IMG/VR virus record: IMGVR_UViG_3300034060_001141
Span: 1-24,030 of that record
From: a virus
Reading direction: 5' to 3' (one strand)
DNA: 24,030 nt
A model generated the notes under the pieces. The model was given only the letters and a program-made list of their open reading frames with translations, searched no databases and had not been told where the DNA came from. The stretch's first letter is position 1; every line of letters starts with the position of its first letter. Shown here in pieces: positions 24 to 19,628 of this stretch. Made by a program: the position numbers and the translations under genes.

Positions 24-716
24 TCATATAAATTTAATTTCATTAGTTATAGGGTCCCAATCAATATTCCACGGAGTGTGAGAATAAAGATATTGCTCGT
101 TCAATACAGATGCATTGAAGTAGTGTGTGTGTCCGTCAAAGTAGTGACCATGACCACTGTGGATATGACCACAGATGTGGATCTTAGGTTTGATTTGTTT
201 GATTTTCTCTGCAAGTAATTCACAACCCAAGTGAACATTGCGGTTACCTTCAACATCATCCAATATTCCCCAAGCAGGTCCGTGAGTAATCAAGATATCA
301 ATACCTTCAGGTATCATATCCCATTTTGCTTTCAACTCTTCACCATTTTTTGGTAAGTTAAATGCCCAATTGTAGAACTCAGGTTGCCAAGGAGAACCCC
401 AAATTTTAATCTCAGGTCCATCACCATCTTGAATGGTCATTAACTCATCTTGGATGTAGTCAATAGTTTTGTATCCTGTTAAGATACCTTTAACTTTCTC
501 AACGTTGTTTTGAAAACCCCAATCGTGATTACCCGCAATAAATACTTTGTGATCGTAGGTTACGATTTTGTCATACCAACCCGCAAACTGAGTGATCTCG
601 TGTTCGTAACCCATAGAGCTTATGTCACCTGCGTGTAACAACAAATCACCACCAGGTAAATCGTGGTGTACGTGTTTGTGTTTTCCGTGTGTGTCTGATA
701 TAATAGTTAATTTCAT
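24..716 (-). CDS. Calcineurin-like metallophosphoesterase (intact)
   Basis: This 230-residue protein has the ordered metal-binding motifs of the calcineurin-like phosphoesterase superfamily: SDTHG at residues 7-11, GD at 30-31, GNHD at 62-65, THGP at 144-147 and GHIH at 183-186. It is therefore likely a two-metal phosphoesterase acting on a phosphomonoester or phosphodiester; the substrate cannot be read from the sequence. It is short and single-domain, without a signal peptide. It is led by its own TAnnTTTG box 4 nt before the ATG. A second, broken member of the same superfamily lies at 22046-22688. Enzymes of this fold can open 2',3'-cyclic phosphates, which would fit the RNA-repair genes elsewhere in the window, but that is inference. 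Confidence 0.93.
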   Translation of the reverse strand: MKLTIISDTHGKHKHVHHDLPGGDLLLHAGDISSMGYEHEITQFAGWYDKIVTYDHKVFIAGNHDWGFQNNVEKVKGILTGYKTIDYIQDELMTIQDGDGPEIKIWGSPWQPEFYNWAFNLPKNGEELKAKWDMIPEGIDILITHGPAWGILDDVEGNRNVHLGCELLAEKIKQIKPKIHICGHIHSGHGHYFDGHTHYFNASVLNEQYLYSHTPWNIDWDPITNEIKFI

Positions 717-720
717 AATA

Positions 721-728
721 CAAATATA
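721..728 (-). promoter_or_regulatory. Bacteroidota -7 promoter box TATATTTG
   Basis: On the minus strand the sequence is TATATTTG followed by TATT and the ATG of the metallophosphoesterase gene. It matches the Bacteroidota -7 consensus TAnnTTTG exactly and directly follows the TAG stop of the preceding 48-residue gene. A 4-nt gap to the ATG places the expected transcription start at or next to the start codon. Confidence 0.75.
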
Positions 729-3223: not shown

Positions 3224-4465
3224 TTAATTACTTAGTGGTGCTTTAATAGTTGGGTGTGATTGATAGTTTTCAATAACAAAATCAGTATTATCTAAATGAG
3301 TTAACAATGATAAATCCTCACCTAATGATTTATAAAACTCATCAGTTTTTAGATGTTTTAATGTTGGTAGTGGGTATGGTTCTCTTGTTCGTCTTTCAAC
3401 AGGATACATTTCATCTATATCCTCATGAGTACAAGTGAACGGAATACCAAAATCCATAATGTCAAAATTATTGTATTTCTTACTTGCTAAATCAATACGT
3501 TCTTCAATTGTTAACTCTCTACCAATCTGTTCCTTTGCCTGTTCAATATGATTCAAATACAAATGTGTATCACCTAAATTACCAATCAATTCATCAGGAA
3601 CCATATTAACTTCTTTTGCAATGATTTCAAGTAGTAAACCTAAGAATGTATCTACTGAACGTTGATTCCACATTAAAGAGATTGCTCGGGTTGGGATTCC
3701 TGCTTTATTGTATTGTTCTTCTTTAGACCAATTATTCATCATAAATTCATAACCCCTTTCATCGAATATTCGATATCTTTCTTTCTCACTCAACTCTCTT
3801 GTATAAACTTGAAATCCATAATGACAAGGTGGTAAAGTCATTTGGTCCAATTCACCAACATTCCACGCATTAACCATTAATCGTCTTGAATCTGGGTTTG
3901 TTTTAAGGTCGTTGATTAGGTTTGCGATTTGGTCAAATGTTCTATAATGTCTAATGCCATCCCACATATCAGCTCCACATATTTCTTCATCTATTCCATC
4001 AACATCTTGTTTTTGTTCTTTAGTTAAGTAAGTCCATTCTCTCCATTGTTTACCATATACCGGACCTAAATCACCCCACTTATTAGCAAACTCATTATCT
4101 GTTTTGATTAGTCTAATAAATTCTTCCTTAGTTGGAACGTAGTAACCTGTATAATCTTCTTTACCTGAATGTTCGTTATACCATTTTTCAAACGCTTTAT
4201 AAGCATCACCATCCCAAATATGACAATTATTATCCACAAGGAATTTAATGTTTGTATCACCACGTAAGAACCATAATAATTCTGTTGTGATTGTTTTGAA
4301 TGGCATCTTCTTTGTTGTAAGTAATGGGAAACCATCTGACATCTTATGTCTTATCTGTCTTCCGAATATTGAAAGTGTGCCTGTTCCCGTACGATCTGAT
4401 TTTGTAACTCCGTTATCTATAATATCTTGGAGTAGGTCTGTATATTGTTTGTCTAAATTATTCAT
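3224..4465 (-). CDS. thyA: Thymidylate synthase with phage-type insertions
   Basis: The protein converts dUMP to dTMP using methylenetetrahydrofolate. Visible signatures are DRTGTGT (24-30), FPLLTTKK (46-53), GDLGPVYGKQWR (131-142), DSRRLMVNAWN (192-202) and the active-site LPPCHYGFQV (211-220, catalytic Cys214), then GDTHLYLNH (298-306). I start it at the ATG at 4465, because MNNLDKQYTDLLQ aligns with the usual TS N-terminus; the frame stays open 11 codons further upstream. At 413 residues it is much longer than the usual ~264, because of inserts at about 91-130, 146-172 and 225-257. Its start overlaps the upstream microgene by 8 nt. Phages with DNA-rich bursts commonly carry TS. Confidence 0.97.
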   Translation of the reverse strand: MNNLDKQYTDLLQDIIDNGVTKSDRTGTGTLSIFGRQIRHKMSDGFPLLTTKKMPFKTITTELLWFLRGDTNIKFLVDNNCHIWDGDAYKAFEKWYNEHSGKEDYTGYYVPTKEEFIRLIKTDNEFANKWGDLGPVYGKQWREWTYLTKEQKQDVDGIDEEICGADMWDGIRHYRTFDQIANLINDLKTNPDSRRLMVNAWNVGELDQMTLPPCHYGFQVYTRELSEKERYRIFDERGYEFMMNNWSKEEQYNKAGIPTRAISLMWNQRSVDTFLGLLLEIIAKEVNMVPDELIGNLGDTHLYLNHIEQAKEQIGRELTIEERIDLASKKYNNFDIMDFGIPFTCTHEDIDEMYPVERRTREPYPLPTLKHLKTDEFYKSLGEDLSLLTHLDNTDFVIENYQSHPTIKAPLSN

Positions 4466-4598
4466 TAATGATTGTTTTAAGTCGTTTAATTTCCTCAATT
4501 ACATCATCACCCAATTCAATCTTGGACATCATTGATAGGTCTACCACTTGAGAGTATAATACTTTAATTAACTCGTCTTTTGCTTCTTCTTTATTCAT
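4458..4598 (-). CDS. Acidic microprotein, 46 aa
   Basis: A 46-codon frame starts MNKEEAKDEL and ends in a Glu codon. Both ends use an 8-nt overlap with its neighbours (sequence ATGAATAA), which is the same junction found repeatedly in this region. The middle contains LGDDVIEEI, close to LGDDIEEEI in the 56-residue gene at 4964, which suggests a paralogous pair. Function unknown; probably helical. Confidence 0.68.
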   Translation of the reverse strand: MNKEEAKDELIKVLYSQVVDLSMMSKIELGDDVIEEIKRLKTIINE

Positions 4599-6008: not shown

Positions 6009-6419
6009 CTATACTGTGTGTTCTATTTGTACTCTTACACAATTCTGAGGTAATCTACTTAAGTGTCTGTAATTGTTGATGTAACCCATCATATTACCAC
6101 TACCAATAGCATTTGCAGAATGAACCACAACTTCCACAACAGGTTTACCATCCATCCATTGATTAACCAACCATTTGGTACAATCCATTCCTGTTTTCTC
6201 AGTGATGTTATCATAATTGATTGCGTAGTTTTTTACAACACCATACAACCATTCATTCATCGCACTATCACCTAAGTCGTGATCCAACGATATCAAATCA
6301 ATGTTCTCCAACCCAATTGAGTTTATCTTTTGAACGAACTCATCATAAGAACGAACAACGATCCAACTTGGATCTACTGGTGTGCGAACATCATCCAAAT
6401 ATATTTTTACTTTATCCAT
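6009..6419 (-). CDS. Cyclic-phosphate-processing receiver-domain (cPPR) protein
   Basis: The 136-residue product fits the stand-alone receiver-like family named cyclic-phosphate processing receiver domain. It has KIYLDDVRTP at 5-14, SYDEF, ISLDHDLGD at 43-51 and, in place of the usual receiver lysine region, VVHSANAIGSGNM at 98-110. The paired aspartates at 9-10 and Asp46/Asp48 would form the acidic pocket. The family was defined in the context of RNA-repair systems and is predicted to act on 2',3'-cyclic phosphate ends, not in two-component signalling. It leads a long operon from its own promoter 4 nt upstream. Other RNA-repair-type genes occur elsewhere in the window. Confidence 0.8.
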   Translation of the reverse strand: MDKVKIYLDDVRTPVDPSWIVVRSYDEFVQKINSIGLENIDLISLDHDLGDSAMNEWLYGVVKNYAINYDNITEKTGMDCTKWLVNQWMDGKPVVEVVVHSANAIGSGNMMGYINNYRHLSRLPQNCVRVQIEHTV

Positions 6420-6423
6420 ATTA

Positions 6424-6431
6424 CAAATGTA
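6424..6431 (-). promoter_or_regulatory. Bacteroidota -7 promoter box TACATTTG
   Basis: The minus strand reads TACATTTG, TAAT, then the ATG of the receiver-domain gene. The box abuts the TAG stop of the upstream gene. The arrangement (stop codon, box, 4 nt, ATG) is the same as at 721-728. No TTTG is seen at the -33 position. Confidence 0.72.
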
Positions 6432-7139: not shown

Positions 7140-8216
7140 TTAAGTAAAAAATACTTGATTACCAAACCTTATCGCATCTTTAAGATACTCATTAAAAGGT
7201 TTTGTTCTATCTTCTTTGTCGTGATAATAGTTACCCCAATCCATATTACCATCCTGAGCCGGTAATGGTTGGACTTTTTTTACTCCATTTCTAATAATAT
7301 CATCAACCCCAAGAAGAGTACGTCGTCGTGTACCAATAGTCTCCTTTACTCCACCTTGAATAATATCTTTAATTCTTTCATCACCATCTAACCAATCACC
7401 ATCTTCAGTATGTTTAACACCATTTTCAATGGTATCTTCAACTTGTCCACTTAACGGTAACCTTAATGATATGGTCTCTTTCACCCCATTTTGAATGGTA
7501 TCTTTAACTTCAATTAGTTGTAAATCATTAAGTTCTGAGGTATACTTAACCCCATTTTGGATGGTATCTTCAACGTCAACATGAAATGGTTGTTGATCCC
7601 CTTGGGTATATTTCACCCCATTTTTAATGGTATTATCAATGGTGTACCGTCCGTTCCATCGATCCATATTGGTACGTTTAATTCCATTTTGAATGGTGTC
7701 TTCAACATGATGGATTGAACCGAGTAATTCACATTGGGTGTTTTTCACCCCATTTTGAATGGTGTCTTCAACTGAACACGGAAGACGATATTTAACAACA
7801 AAGGTGTGTTTAACCCCATTTTGAATGGTATCTTCAATAGCGAATGAATCGGCAATTGATTCAGGTACGGTGCGTTTAACCCCATTTTGAATGGTATCTT
7901 CAACTATGGGTTGGAGTTCAAAATGAAGGTTTATGGTATCTTCAACCACCTCAGGTTTAAGAAATCTTGACTCAAACCATTCGGTAATATATACTTGATT
8001 TTCCATAACATCCAAAGACATTGCTTTAAATAAAGATTTAAAAATATTATAGTTATACCACAATGTTTTATCTTTAGTAAATTCAATCATCCATTTTAAT
8101 TCTTTGGTGTTAATTAACCAAAAAGATCCATTATGGTTATATATGTCCATACCATTGGCGAGATCATCAACTATCTCAAACAAACATTCTTTTTTCTTTA
8201 GTTCTTTATTATTCAT
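7140..8216 (-). CDS. Protein of ten 22-residue repeats with variable linkers
   Basis: The 358-residue protein has a globular N-terminal region (about 1-90, with GSFWLINTKELKWMIEFTKD and LWYNYN) followed by ten repeats starting at residues 105, 127, 149, 171, 193, 215, 237, 259, 282 and 304. Each repeat is a conserved 12-residue block, consensus VEDTIQNGVKxT, plus about 10 residues that differ completely from unit to unit. A truncated unit (VEDTI) sits at 91. Repeats 9 and 10 are degenerate, and the C-terminus (YLKDAIRFGN) looks like a further worn copy. The gene overlaps the primase-like gene by 8 nt. The repeats may form a solenoid or a display scaffold; no function is known to me. Confidence 0.9.
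   Translation of the reverse strand: MNNKELKKKECLFEIVDDLANGMDIYNHNGSFWLINTKELKWMIEFTKDKTLWYNYNIFKSLFKAMSLDVMENQVYITEWFESRFLKPEVVEDTINLHFELQPIVEDTIQNGVKRTVPESIADSFAIEDTIQNGVKHTFVVKYRLPCSVEDTIQNGVKNTQCELLGSIHHVEDTIQNGIKRTNMDRWNGRYTIDNTIKNGVKYTQGDQQPFHVDVEDTIQNGVKYTSELNDLQLIEVKDTIQNGVKETISLRLPLSGQVEDTIENGVKHTEDGDWLDGDERIKDIIQGGVKETIGTRRRTLLGVDDIIRNGVKKVQPLPAQDGNMDWGNYYHDKEDRTKPFNEYLKDAIRFGNQVFFT
7272..7904 (-). repeat. Ten-unit 66-bp coding repeat array
   Basis: On the plus strand the core ACCCCATTTTGAATGG recurs exactly four times and with one to a few changes in the other units, at a 66-nt period (one interval is 69 nt). Each unit is about 36 bp conserved plus about 30 bp unrelated sequence. 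The conserved part is kept even at synonymous positions. Copies at the low-coordinate end (3' end of the gene) are the most diverged. Confidence 0.93.
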
Positions 8217-9309: not shown

Positions 9310-10044
9310 TTAATTTTCCATTGTGGGCTTCAACCACATTAATTTGTTTTCAAAAATATATCTCTTTAACGTTGGGTAGTCATTTAACATATCTAACGTA
9401 CCCATTGTATCGTGTTTAAAACATTTAAACAACTCTTCTCTAATTCTTTCAGATGATACAACTCCCATCTTATTTTCATAATCGTAGTTGTTGATGTAGT
9501 AATCTAAAAATTTTAAACTGAAACCTTTTGTTATTGCAAATCTTACCGCTCTTAAAACACGAAGCGGATCATCATTAAATGTTTGTTCAGGTGGTAGTGG
9601 AGTTATAAGAACCATTCGTTTTAAATCATTCATTCCATCAAATAAATCAATGATCTTACCATCTTCACCTTTAGCCATGGCGTTAACGGTAAAGTCTCTA
9701 CGTTCTAAATCGTCTTTAAGGGTTCCTGGTACAATGATAGGAGTTCTTGTTCCTTCCACATACCCAATCTCTTTACGAGCCATTACGAAGTCTGCAACCC
9801 CTTGATATTTGTGATCCTTAGGGAACTTAGCTCTTATAGTAAAACAATCAGGTGTTGATAGGAATATCTCAAATTTCTCATTTAAAAGAAATGTTTCCAA
9901 CACCACATACATCTCGTGAGCACTCTTGTACTTTTCCAATAATGTATCACTTGGGACCGCAACATAATCAACGTCTTTAGATTGGAGACCTAAGATCTCG
10001 TCTCTAATTTTTCCCCCTACCTCATAAAATTTAAATAAACTCAT
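9310..10044 (-). CDS. CCA-adding / poly(A) polymerase-type nucleotidyltransferase, short form
   Basis: The protein has the class II nucleotidyltransferase core: YEVGGKIRDEIL at 7-18, the metal-binding DVDYV (24-28), ERRDFTVNAMA and NDDPLRVLRAVRFA. It should add CCA, or nucleotides in general, to the 3' end of tRNA or other RNA. I use the ATG at 10044 (MSLFKFYEVGG), one base after the stop of the PHPT-like gene; the frame continues upstream only inside that gene. At 244 residues it lacks most of the body and tail and any HD domain seen in ~400-residue bacterial enzymes, so it is a minimal version. It fits an RNA-repair role. Confidence 0.93.
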   Translation of the reverse strand: MSLFKFYEVGGKIRDEILGLQSKDVDYVAVPSDTLLEKYKSAHEMYVVLETFLLNEKFEIFLSTPDCFTIRAKFPKDHKYQGVADFVMARKEIGYVEGTRTPIIVPGTLKDDLERRDFTVNAMAKGEDGKIIDLFDGMNDLKRMVLITPLPPEQTFNDDPLRVLRAVRFAITKGFSLKFLDYYINNYDYENKMGVVSSERIREELFKCFKHDTMGTLDMLNDYPTLKRYIFENKLMWLKPTMEN

Positions 10045-10045
10045 A

Positions 10046-10363
10046 TTAATATCCTTCTCCTGTTTCGTTAATAAAATCAACCCCTTTTTCTTTTGCAAAC
10101 TCAGACACCAGTCTCTCAACTAAATCTTTATCCATTCTTCCATAATCAACAGAATAACCATAAACTCTAATTCCAAGATCAGACCAACGAACTCTTCCCC
10201 CACCACGGATTCTCCAACCCTTCAGTTCAGGTTCTTCGTTTCTAAAATGATTTGCAACGTCTTCATGAAACTCACCGTAACCTGAACGAAATACAACTTC
10301 ACCCTCATTTTCAAGGATGACACATTTACGAACCATATCTTTTTCAATGATAACTTTTTCCAT
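10046..10363 (-). CDS. PHPT1/Janus/Ocnus-like phosphohistidine phosphatase
   Basis: The 105-residue product lines up with the 14-kDa phosphohistidine phosphatase family: GYGEFHEDVANHF at 28-40 carries His33 at the position of the catalytic His of human PHPT1 (His53, in AEYHADIYD); GGGRVRW at 54-60 matches the family GGGR; and VYGYSVDYG at 67-75 matches its VYGYSxxYG signature; the end, INETGEGY, also fits. The family removes phosphate from protein histidine or lysine residues. The gene heads an operon with a complete -33/-7 promoter 4 nt before the ATG and is followed 1 nt later by the CCA-type enzyme. The partner substrate in the phage or host is unknown. Confidence 0.85.
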   Translation of the reverse strand: MEKVIIEKDMVRKCVILENEGEVVFRSGYGEFHEDVANHFRNEEPELKGWRIRGGGRVRWSDLGIRVYGYSVDYGRMDKDLVERLVSEFAKEKGVDFINETGEGY

Positions 10364-10367
10364 AAAA

Positions 10368-10399
10368 CAAAAGTAATTAATTTTTAGTTATAAACCAAA
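10368..10399 (-). promoter_or_regulatory. Full Bacteroidota promoter (TTTG-N20-TACTTTTG)
   Basis: The minus strand shows TTTG, 20 nt, TACTTTTG, 4 nt (TTTT), then the ATG of the PHPT-like gene. Both elements match the Bacteroidota consensus (TTTG at -33, TAnnTTTG at -7) with typical spacing. The -33 element lies in the T-tract of the terminator of the upstream operon. Confidence 0.85.
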
Positions 10400-10425
10400 A
10401 AAATCCCCACTTATTGTGAGGATTT
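10397..10425 (-). terminator. Rho-independent terminator after SPFH gene
   Basis: On the minus strand AAATCCTCAC, loop AATAA, GTGGGGATTT form a 10-bp stem (one wobble or mismatch zone in the middle) followed by a run of Ts. It lies 18 nt past the SPFH gene stop and ends the operon from 12865. Confidence 0.88.
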
Positions 10426-15170: not shown

Positions 15171-16274
15171 TTATTTTTTCCCACATATTTGTTTAACATC
15201 CTCGTCTTTGAAGGTTTTACTCTGTGTTTTGTCCTCTAACGCCTTTTCTGTTTCTTCCCCGAACATGCCGTCAACATCAATACCTAAACATTTTTGTAAT
15301 TGTACTATTTTTGGTCCCTTACATCCTTTATGGTATTCTCCATTACAATTTGTATATTCACTTTTTCCTGTCTCGTTATTTGTTTCTAAAACTTTACATT
15401 TAGGATCATCAGGTGTTTTCTCACAATATACTTTTAAATTATCAGCACATTCCTTAATGTGATCCTTACAATATTCTTCAGACTCAGTTTGTGCATATTT
15501 TTTAGTCATCTCAACTAATGGGTCTGCAATTCCTTCCCAACCATAATCAAAGTCACCATCTAACGCATCTAATAAAGATTCATTAAATGTTTTTTCATAT
15601 TTTTCACTTACCGCACAAAAATCACCAGGACTCTTAAATGACTTGAAGACTCCATAAACAGCATCCTCATCTGTTCCTAAACCATCCATAGCGTGGTATA
15701 ATATCCCTGAATTCTTTTTAACCTCAACATCACTCATGTATCTTTTCCACTTATCCTTATCTTTACTTGTTTGACAAATACCAAATAGATTTTTAATCAT
15801 GGACATTTTATCATCTTTTGTGAACGCCCAATAACCTAATGCCGCAACACCCGCAACACCAAGTATTGTCCAACCAACAGGTCCTAAACCTAAAAAAGTA
15901 GCCGCCGCTGCCGTTTCACCACCTGCGGCCGCAACCGCTCCCGCACCTACAACTTCAGCCCCTACAACTTCAGCCCCTGTTGCCGCCGCAGTTGTTCCTC
16001 CACCACCAAGAAGTGAAGAAGCGGTTTCTACCCCAGTAACCACATCAACTGCATTTTCAGCATTATCACCATTAAGTAATTTTGAACCCTTAGGTATTTT
16101 TCCTTTTATATCTGTTCCTTTAATAATATCACCTGACGGTAATAACCATCTATAAATTTTGTCAGTAATACCATCAGCTTCATTAATATTCTCATTTAAG
16201 GTTTTAGATCGATCATATCCCATAAGGTTTTTAATCCTATTCAATTCCTCAAGTATAATTTTATTATCTTTCAT
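15171..16274 (-). CDS. Membrane/annexin-like/peptidoglycan-binding protein, probable virion protein
   Basis: The 367-residue protein has four visible parts. Residues 1-32 form an amphipathic leader (LEELNRIKNLMGYD) ending in LNENINE followed by Ala33, which fits the T4 prohead protease rule (L/I)-x-E. Residues 90-150 are a Gly/Ala-rich, hydrophobic stretch with a membrane-length segment (128-150). Residues 196-243 contain MDGLGTDEDAVYGVFKSF, then EKYEKTFNESLLDAL, which reads like an annexin repeat (GxGTDE plus a following helix). Residues 322-346 (KIVQLQKCLGIDVDGMFGEE) match a PG_binding_1 domain. Together this suggests a capsid or tail protein that meets the cell wall and membrane. It stands alone between two terminators. 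Confidence 0.88.
   Translation of the reverse strand: MKDNKIILEELNRIKNLMGYDRSKTLNENINEADGITDKIYRWLLPSGDIIKGTDIKGKIPKGSKLLNGDNAENAVDVVTGVETASSLLGGGGTTAAATGAEVVGAEVVGAGAVAAAGGETAAAATFLGLGPVGWTILGVAGVAALGYWAFTKDDKMSMIKNLFGICQTSKDKDKWKRYMSDVEVKKNSGILYHAMDGLGTDEDAVYGVFKSFKSPGDFCAVSEKYEKTFNESLLDALDGDFDYGWEGIADPLVEMTKKYAQTESEEYCKDHIKECADNLKVYCEKTPDDPKCKVLETNNETGKSEYTNCNGEYHKGCKGPKIVQLQKCLGIDVDGMFGEETEKALEDKTQSKTFKDEDVKQICGKK
15946..15975 (-). repeat. 15-bp perfect tandem duplication in coding sequence
   Basis: The plus strand holds two adjacent copies of CCTACAACTTCAGCC. They encode the repeated AEVVG units in the Gly/Ala-rich part of the protein at 15171-16274. Confidence 0.9.
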
Positions 16275-18472: not shown

Positions 18473-18508
18473 AAAAAAAAGTGACCCCATCAAGTTAATG
18501 GGAGTCAC
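18473..18508 (-). terminator. Rho-independent terminator holding the RNA ligase stop codon
   Basis: On the minus strand GTGACTCCCAT and ATGGGGTCAC pair with one bulged T and are followed by eight Ts. The TAA stop of the RNA ligase gene (18495-18497) lies in the 7-nt loop, so the last codons form one arm of the hairpin. Confidence 0.9.
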
Positions 18509-19628
18509 CCACGTTATTTTTTTCACCATAGATCAAGTAGTCAGGATTGATTACTTTAGAAACCTTTCTACGGTCACCATTTACGGATTTCACAACTATA
18601 CCTTCGTGAGGAACTTTAGTACCTTCTATGAAGTTACCGAAGACGTATTTGTCTTGTTCTTCTTTATCCCAATTACCTTGGTATAACAACTCAACCTGTG
18701 GTAACTCTAAACAGTCAAAGTGTACAGTTTCATTTATGTATGGTTGGTATTCTCCATCAACTTCAACATCAAACCCTACAAACTTAACATCAGTCAAACC
18801 GTACTCGTAGTTTTTTTGTATTCCGGCACCATATATCTCACCGTATATAACAACACCTTCAGTTAACATAGATGGTTCGTAAGTATCTTTTACGTGATCC
18901 CACAATTTACCTCTTATGTCGTATGTGTTTGCAACAGTTTTCCAAACATCAGTATCGTAGAAACCTTGAGAGTCAGATCCTTTTTCAACGTTGTGAGAAC
19001 CATAGACATATTCAAACGCCGCCCATTGATTACCAAATAGTACTTTAACACGATCCCACAAAGAAAGTTTTTTCTTTCTAACTATTCCGTAACGAGCGTT
19101 AGTTCCGTGAAGTTTACGAGTTATAACAACCTCATCTTCCTCATTGAACATATCAGGTACGTTCTTTTGATTAGGGAACTTGTAGTAAACTTTGAAGTTA
19201 GGGTTTTGGTGGTACTTTATTTTACGTCCACCAACACTTAACTGAACGGTCTTAACAGGTGGCTCATACTTAGTTATCCCAAGTATTGTCATCATATCAT
19301 CACCTTCATTAACGTTGTTCTCCAAAGATTTTGGTGCCAAGTATTTGAATGGTATTAATAAACATTCAGAATAAACTCCACGAAGTTTTACAGTACGAAC
19401 TCTTTGACCTTTACGAAGGTAGTTAGTAACTTCCATCAAGTCAGATAATGCCTGTGGTATTACCGCATCTGTGGTCGCAACAACAACCTTATCTCCAGAT
19501 TGGTATTCACCTTTTTTAGTTATGGCGTTCCATCCACCAACTAACACTTGTTCTATGTTATCCGCCCCTTCTATTGGTTTAACCTCTCCGATTACACCAA
19601 CGTAACATACACTATTTTGATTTTCCAT
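18495..19628 (-). CDS. Rnl5 (DraRnl)-type RNA ligase
   Basis: The 377-residue protein combines an N-terminal OB-like domain (about 1-120, with AxITKKGEYQSGDKVVV-like features and VRTVKLRGVYSECLL) and a covalent nucleotidyltransferase domain. The ligase motifs are KLHGTN at 172-177 (Lys172 is the likely AMP acceptor), VIYGEIYGAG at 260-269, HEGIVVKS at 341-348 and RKVSKVIN at 354-361. This order is that of Deinococcus-type RNA ligase (Rnl5), which seals 5'-phosphate and 3'-OH RNA ends in nicked duplexes. The gene overlaps a small membrane gene by 17 nt and ends in a terminator. It is the sealing enzyme for the putative RNA-repair set. Confidence 0.94.
   Translation of the reverse strand: MENQNSVCYVGVIGEVKPIEGADNIEQVLVGGWNAITKKGEYQSGDKVVVATTDAVIPQALSDLMEVTNYLRKGQRVRTVKLRGVYSECLLIPFKYLAPKSLENNVNEGDDMMTILGITKYEPPVKTVQLSVGGRKIKYHQNPNFKVYYKFPNQKNVPDMFNEEDEVVITRKLHGTNARYGIVRKKKLSLWDRVKVLFGNQWAAFEYVYGSHNVEKGSDSQGFYDTDVWKTVANTYDIRGKLWDHVKDTYEPSMLTEGVVIYGEIYGAGIQKNYEYGLTDVKFVGFDVEVDGEYQPYINETVHFDCLELPQVELLYQGNWDKEEQDKYVFGNFIEGTKVPHEGIVVKSVNGDRRKVSKVINPDYLIYGEKNNVGDSH

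Follow-up and report, generated by a model that had tools for sequence, protein, structure and literature searches.

A PHPT1-family protein with an intact catalytic set is encoded in phage genomes

The 14-kDa phosphohistidine phosphatase PHPT1 is known from animals, and the bacterial phosphohistidine phosphatase SixA differs from it in both fold and mechanism. SixA is reported to remove phosphate from the phosphocarrier NPr of E. coli (PMC7948535). The catalytic site of human PHPT1 comprises Lys21, His53, the Ala54 NH, Arg78, Ser94, and the Ala96 NH (PMC4817053), and His53, as general base, activates water without a phospho-enzyme being formed (PMC11277029). The human enzyme is active on bacterial CheA and on phospholysine, and mutagenesis identified His102 as important (PMC11277029), a residue that is absent from the catalytic-site list of PMC4817053. 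Here, we analyzed a 24,030-base virus record (the window) that contains a 105-aa ORF on the minus strand at 10363-10046, with its ATG at 10363-10361 and its TAA at 10048-10046.

10046..10363, minus strand: PHPT1/Janus-like protein, 105 aa, putative catalytic set K13, H33, R57, and S71 (PF05005, PDB profile match, AlphaFold2, Foldseek, alignment).
10265..10267, minus strand: codon of His33, the counterpart of the human general base His53 (alignment; role per PMC11277029; position computed from the ORF start).

The ORF protein contains GEFHEDV (residues 30-36), GGGR (54-57), and VYGYSVDYG (67-75), the three motifs, the last as VYGYSxxYG, from which a preliminary description had placed it in the PHPT1/Janus family. 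That placement was borne out by an HMM search, in which Pfam PF05005 (Janus/Ocnus, the family of PHPT1) matched the ORF with 31.2 bits (cut-off 23) and an E-value of 2.5e-7. All seven family members scanned individually, the window protein included, matched PF05005 (best E 8.4e-8), as did 10 of 11 virus records at scores over the cut-off. A profile built from seven phage sequences retrieved the human PHPT1 entries from the PDB at E 3.7e-5 to 5.1e-5 and nothing else below 0.05, and hhalign of the phage-family profile against human PHPT1 alone gave E 2.5e-6. An AlphaFold2 model of the window protein with nine relatives reached a mean pLDDT of 92.0 and a pTM of 0.84. When this model was searched against the PDB with Foldseek, five chains scored E<=1e-3, all of them human PHPT1 (2nmm/2hw4/2ai6), with TM-scores of 0.75-0.79 by query length. 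The preliminary description had named two refuting outcomes, the lack of a significant PF05005 match and a predicted fold with His33 outside the pocket; as far as these analyses reach, neither arose, the PF05005 match being significant and the predicted fold that of PHPT1. Separately, a candidate match to the TENT5/FAM46 nucleotidyltransferases (PF07984) covered residues 12-70 only, stayed below the cut-off (E 0.083), had no fold-search support, and was rejected. Collectively, the window ORF is a genuine PHPT1-family protein, found in phages and with its catalytic set intact.

PHPT1-like genes were present on 24 IMG/VR contigs at 71-100% identity, two of the copies being cut off at contig ends. 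In a tblastn search of the phage collection we found one record, LR756502.1, an uncultured phage of 642,428 bases, whose copy was 47.6% identical over the full length; with this megaphage protein as query, no further viral relatives appeared. PF05005 was found in none of about 1,165 bacterial genomes from five phyla (395 Bacteroidota, 240 Patescibacteria, 246 Actinomycetota, 249 Bacillota-group, and 35 Omnitrophota; phylum names inferred), a scan for which the virus records served as positive control (10/11 matching) and in which no control genome matched. Fixed-spacing DNA patterns run over 84,980 genomes yielded no true relative, and the 13 genome matches to a GGGR...VYG pattern were all chance when translated. 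Plasmids that we searched held no PHPT1-like relative. The view that a phage copy is unexpected therefore held: we found no PHROG family for the protein, no match among predicted viral structures (BFVD) reaching 1e-3 in Foldseek, no bacterial copy in the genomes scanned, and, in a literature search, no paper linking PHPT1 with a phage genome.

Contig G010, which is 83 kb long and almost identical to the window, encodes DNA primase, SbcC/SbcD-like proteins, and a sigma factor (PHROGs), a gene content that, judged from these matches, supports a large phage. Elsewhere in the window, a 424-aa thymidylate synthase (3224-4498, minus strand) was matched by the profiles in two separate parts; compared with them, it carries an internal insert of roughly 75 aa and about 70 extra residues at its C terminus. 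Parts of the protein at 15171-16274 (minus strand) weakly resemble annexin, tape-measure, and endolysin proteins, with scores that are marginal or fall short of the cut-off; the protein is 367 aa long in the window and 466 aa in G010. In the megaphage (LR756502.1, 405784-422098), the PHPT1-like gene lies between peptidase-like and phosphopantetheine-adenylyltransferase-like genes, and nearby are a run of proteins starting MKHLKKxNE and a gene resembling glutamyl-tRNA synthetase; these gene names come from reading the sequence.

We aligned full-length human PHPT1 (identical in sequence to 2ai6) with eight phage proteins. The human catalytic set Lys21/His53/Arg78/Ser94 corresponds to K13/H33/R57/S71 and is invariant across all nine sequences, in agreement with the earlier assignment of H33 as the catalytic histidine. 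Invariant positions among the phages, the megaphage, and human PHPT1 are K13/K21, H33/H53, G54-G56 with R57/R78, I65, V67-G69, S71/S94, G75, N99, and the terminal GY. Taken with the fold match, the alignment predicts that His33 sits in the pocket. The surroundings differ from those of the human enzyme. At the two positions where a human backbone NH binds phosphate, Ala54 is replaced by E34 in the phages (F in the megaphage) and Ala96 by D73, which is invariant among phages. Within the human substrate shell, Glu51 is mostly kept as E31 (G in the megaphage), Tyr52 is F32, Tyr93 is Y or R at position 70 (R in many members), and Met95 is V or I at position 72; human loop L2 (29-39) is deleted. His102 has no counterpart, the aligned position being K or Q in the eight phage proteins. 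Since His102 lies outside the catalytic-site list of PMC4817053, its absence lowers the claim of activity and not the family assignment. On this alignment, the catalytic chemistry has likely been kept, and the substrate is probably different from the human one; because the substrate-contact residues differ, we do not expect the same target as in animals.

These substitutions bear on a possible but rather unlikely alternative, in which the PHPT1 fold and phosphate pocket are kept for something other than protein phosphohistidine, such as a small phosphoramidate, a phospho-arginine-type mark, or a nucleotide, or simply for binding a phosphorylated ligand. Consistent with it, the catalytic residues are invariant while substrate-shell residues have changed (residue roles from PMC4817053), loop L2 is missing, the acidic D73 is fixed, and Tyr93 has become R in many members. 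However, all four catalytic side chains are invariant even in the 48% identical megaphage copy, which favors the same chemistry.

The region upstream of the PHPT1-like gene contains two further features.

10368..10375, minus strand: TACTTTTG, a match to TAnnTTTG, which we take to be the Bacteroidota -7 element, 4 nt before the ATG (sequence; window site count).
10401..10425, minus strand: intrinsic terminator with a 10-bp stem and T tail, separating the upstream SPFH gene from the PHPT1-like gene (terminator analysis).

A TTTG lies at 10396-10399, 20 nt further upstream of TACTTTTG. The arrangement TAnnTTTG-N4-ATG occurs at seven sites in the window (714-728, 6417-6431, 10361-10375, and four more) against 0.8 expected, and none of 100 shuffles reached seven. 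In most relatives, TATATTTG or TATCTTTG followed by TATT-ATG precedes the PHPT1-like gene. The position of TAnnTTTG 4 nt before the ATG, abutting the start codon, suggests that these phages make leaderless mRNAs and that their host is probably a member of the Bacteroidota; we infer both from these sites.

With moderate confidence, we propose that the protein is a phage enzyme of the PHPT1 fold that hydrolyzes a P-N bond in one of the infected cell's proteins, most likely that of phosphohistidine and possibly that of phospholysine. P-N phosphatase activity itself appears somewhat probable from the sequence and the structure model. A TAnnTTTG promoter of its own would drive the gene, which would open a short operon and be leaderless. 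By analogy with human PHPT1, His33 would serve as general base and activate water, the reaction would pass through no phospho-enzyme, and the phosphate would be held by K13, R57, S71 through its hydroxyl, and NH groups of the backbone. The target would be a protein of the host (or of the phage) phosphorylated on histidine, such as a hybrid two-component sensor, a phosphorelay protein, or a metabolic phospho-enzyme, and its dephosphorylation by the phage would reset a host phosphorelay. The missing His102, the acidic E34 and D73 at the phosphate-binding NH positions, and the altered substrate shell speak against the proposal; gene neighbors point to no pathway, and neither a host substrate nor a host phosphorelay could be tied to the protein. 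The suggestion in the preliminary description that the protein acts on sugar-uptake proteins found no evidence, and the likely Bacteroidota hosts are generally not known to have a sugar PTS, which weakens it. Detocs is a two-component-like defense. A bolder and quite doubtful version of the proposal is that the phage uses the enzyme for counter-signaling, dephosphorylating a histidine phosphorelay with which the host detects or combats the phage, as in a Detocs-like defense; if true, no earlier phage effector would have worked through phosphohistidine removal.

A third gene bears on a possible protein partner.

7140..8216, minus strand: cassette-repeat protein with an N-terminal domain followed by 22-aa units (VEDTIQNGVKxT plus 10 variable aa) (contig comparison).

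A homologue of this gene lies directly downstream of the PHPT1-like gene, at a distance of 0-1 nt, in 14 of the 24 IMG/VR contigs (L012, L013, L032-L040, and L042-L044), and this shared order and narrow gap could mean that the two proteins work together, with the PHPT1-like protein as a modifying or demodifying enzyme. We regard such a partnership as improbable. Other genes intervene in the window and its sisters (five records), as does another small gene in four contigs (L028-L031), although in all of these the repeat gene is still within 0.7-1.9 kb; the megaphage copy has no cassette-repeat gene near it, and the two genes may simply share one accessory operon.

The repeat gene has several properties of its own. 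Its conserved N-terminal domain is about 90 aa long, and its units consist of 36 + 30 nt (window, L025, L026, L032, L013, L028, and L033-L044). The units differ in number, order, and identity between contigs that are 95-100% identical around the gene. Codon position 3 is the most variable, indicating that the repeats are coding. AlphaFold2 modeled paired strands in each unit at low confidence, and a comparison with PDB folds gave no match. The reverse complement of the 36-nt unit (window 7140-8216) looks like a type VI-B CRISPR repeat and shares its 36/30 geometry: in register, 20 of 36 positions are identical to an array that lies beside a Cas13b gene (PADLOC E 3.6e-255) in a Bacteroidota genome (G224; L103 2304-7100). 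The shuffle p-value for this likeness was about 6e-4 over registers, and protospacers did not exceed control level. The resemblance is probably a coincidence of a coding repeat; a role as crRNA-like decoys is worth a check. The repeats of the bacterial Cas13b array (G224:C1:443894-444854) are themselves strongly degenerate, with 0 identical pairs among the seven matched, which is unusual for a CRISPR array.

In the window, the PHPT1-like gene is followed by a different neighbor.

9310..10044, minus strand: tRNA nucleotidyltransferase, CCA-type head domain, 244 aa, the next gene (PF01743, E 6.7e-17; phrog_24229, E 7.6e-58).

This enzyme begins 1 nt after the PHPT1-like stop codon, where the preliminary description had seen it, and the window also encodes an RNA ligase at 18495-19628. 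A role for the PHPT1-like protein alongside these two in RNA repair or a tRNA 3'-end pathway is nevertheless very improbable. The adjacency was found only in the window and four contigs (L002 and L025-L027) that are 95-100% identical over most genes. In L032 the CCA enzyme lies about 4 kb upstream of the PHPT1-like gene, and the flanks examined in the remaining contigs did not show it; the repeat protein takes the downstream position in 14 of 24 contigs and other genes do so in the megaphage. We found no tRNA gene in the window. With the adjacency unconserved and other genes downstream in relatives, the RNA-repair link that had been drawn from it is not supported. Finally, that the ORF is not a gene or that its similarity is due to chance can be dismissed: a single-sequence phmmer search of the PDB with the ORF protein found human PHPT1 weakly (E 0.036), but the profile, fold, and conservation evidence, together with purifying selection (pairwise dN/dS 0.04-0.34 for nine sequences, all unsaturated pairs), refutes this reading.

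That several phage lineages, one of them a 642-kb phage, share a conserved PHPT1-like gene is unexpected given that none was found in the sampled bacterial genomes, and it makes a phosphohistidine-removing phage enzyme directly testable. The protein is also a small and diverged PHPT1 that retains the catalytic core but has an altered substrate shell, and it should be useful for separating catalysis from specificity. Among described proteins, bacterial SixA, a member of the histidine phosphatase superfamily with an RHG motif, would target bonds of the same type; the window protein had no Pfam match to that superfamily. The Drosophila proteins Janus A/B and Ocnus, testis proteins of an animal, belong to the same Pfam family, PF05005. 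Human PHPT1 (PDB 2hw4, 2nmm, and 2ai6; PF05005) is a member as well. The phage protein differs from it in being phage-encoded and about 21-28% identical, in lacking loop L2 and H102, and in the changes A54 to E, A96 to D, Y52 to F, Y93 to Y/R, and M95 to V/I, but the two share the same fold (TM 0.75-0.79), the residues K21/H53/R78/S94, the GGGR and VYGYSxxYG motifs, and the C-terminal N-x-GY.
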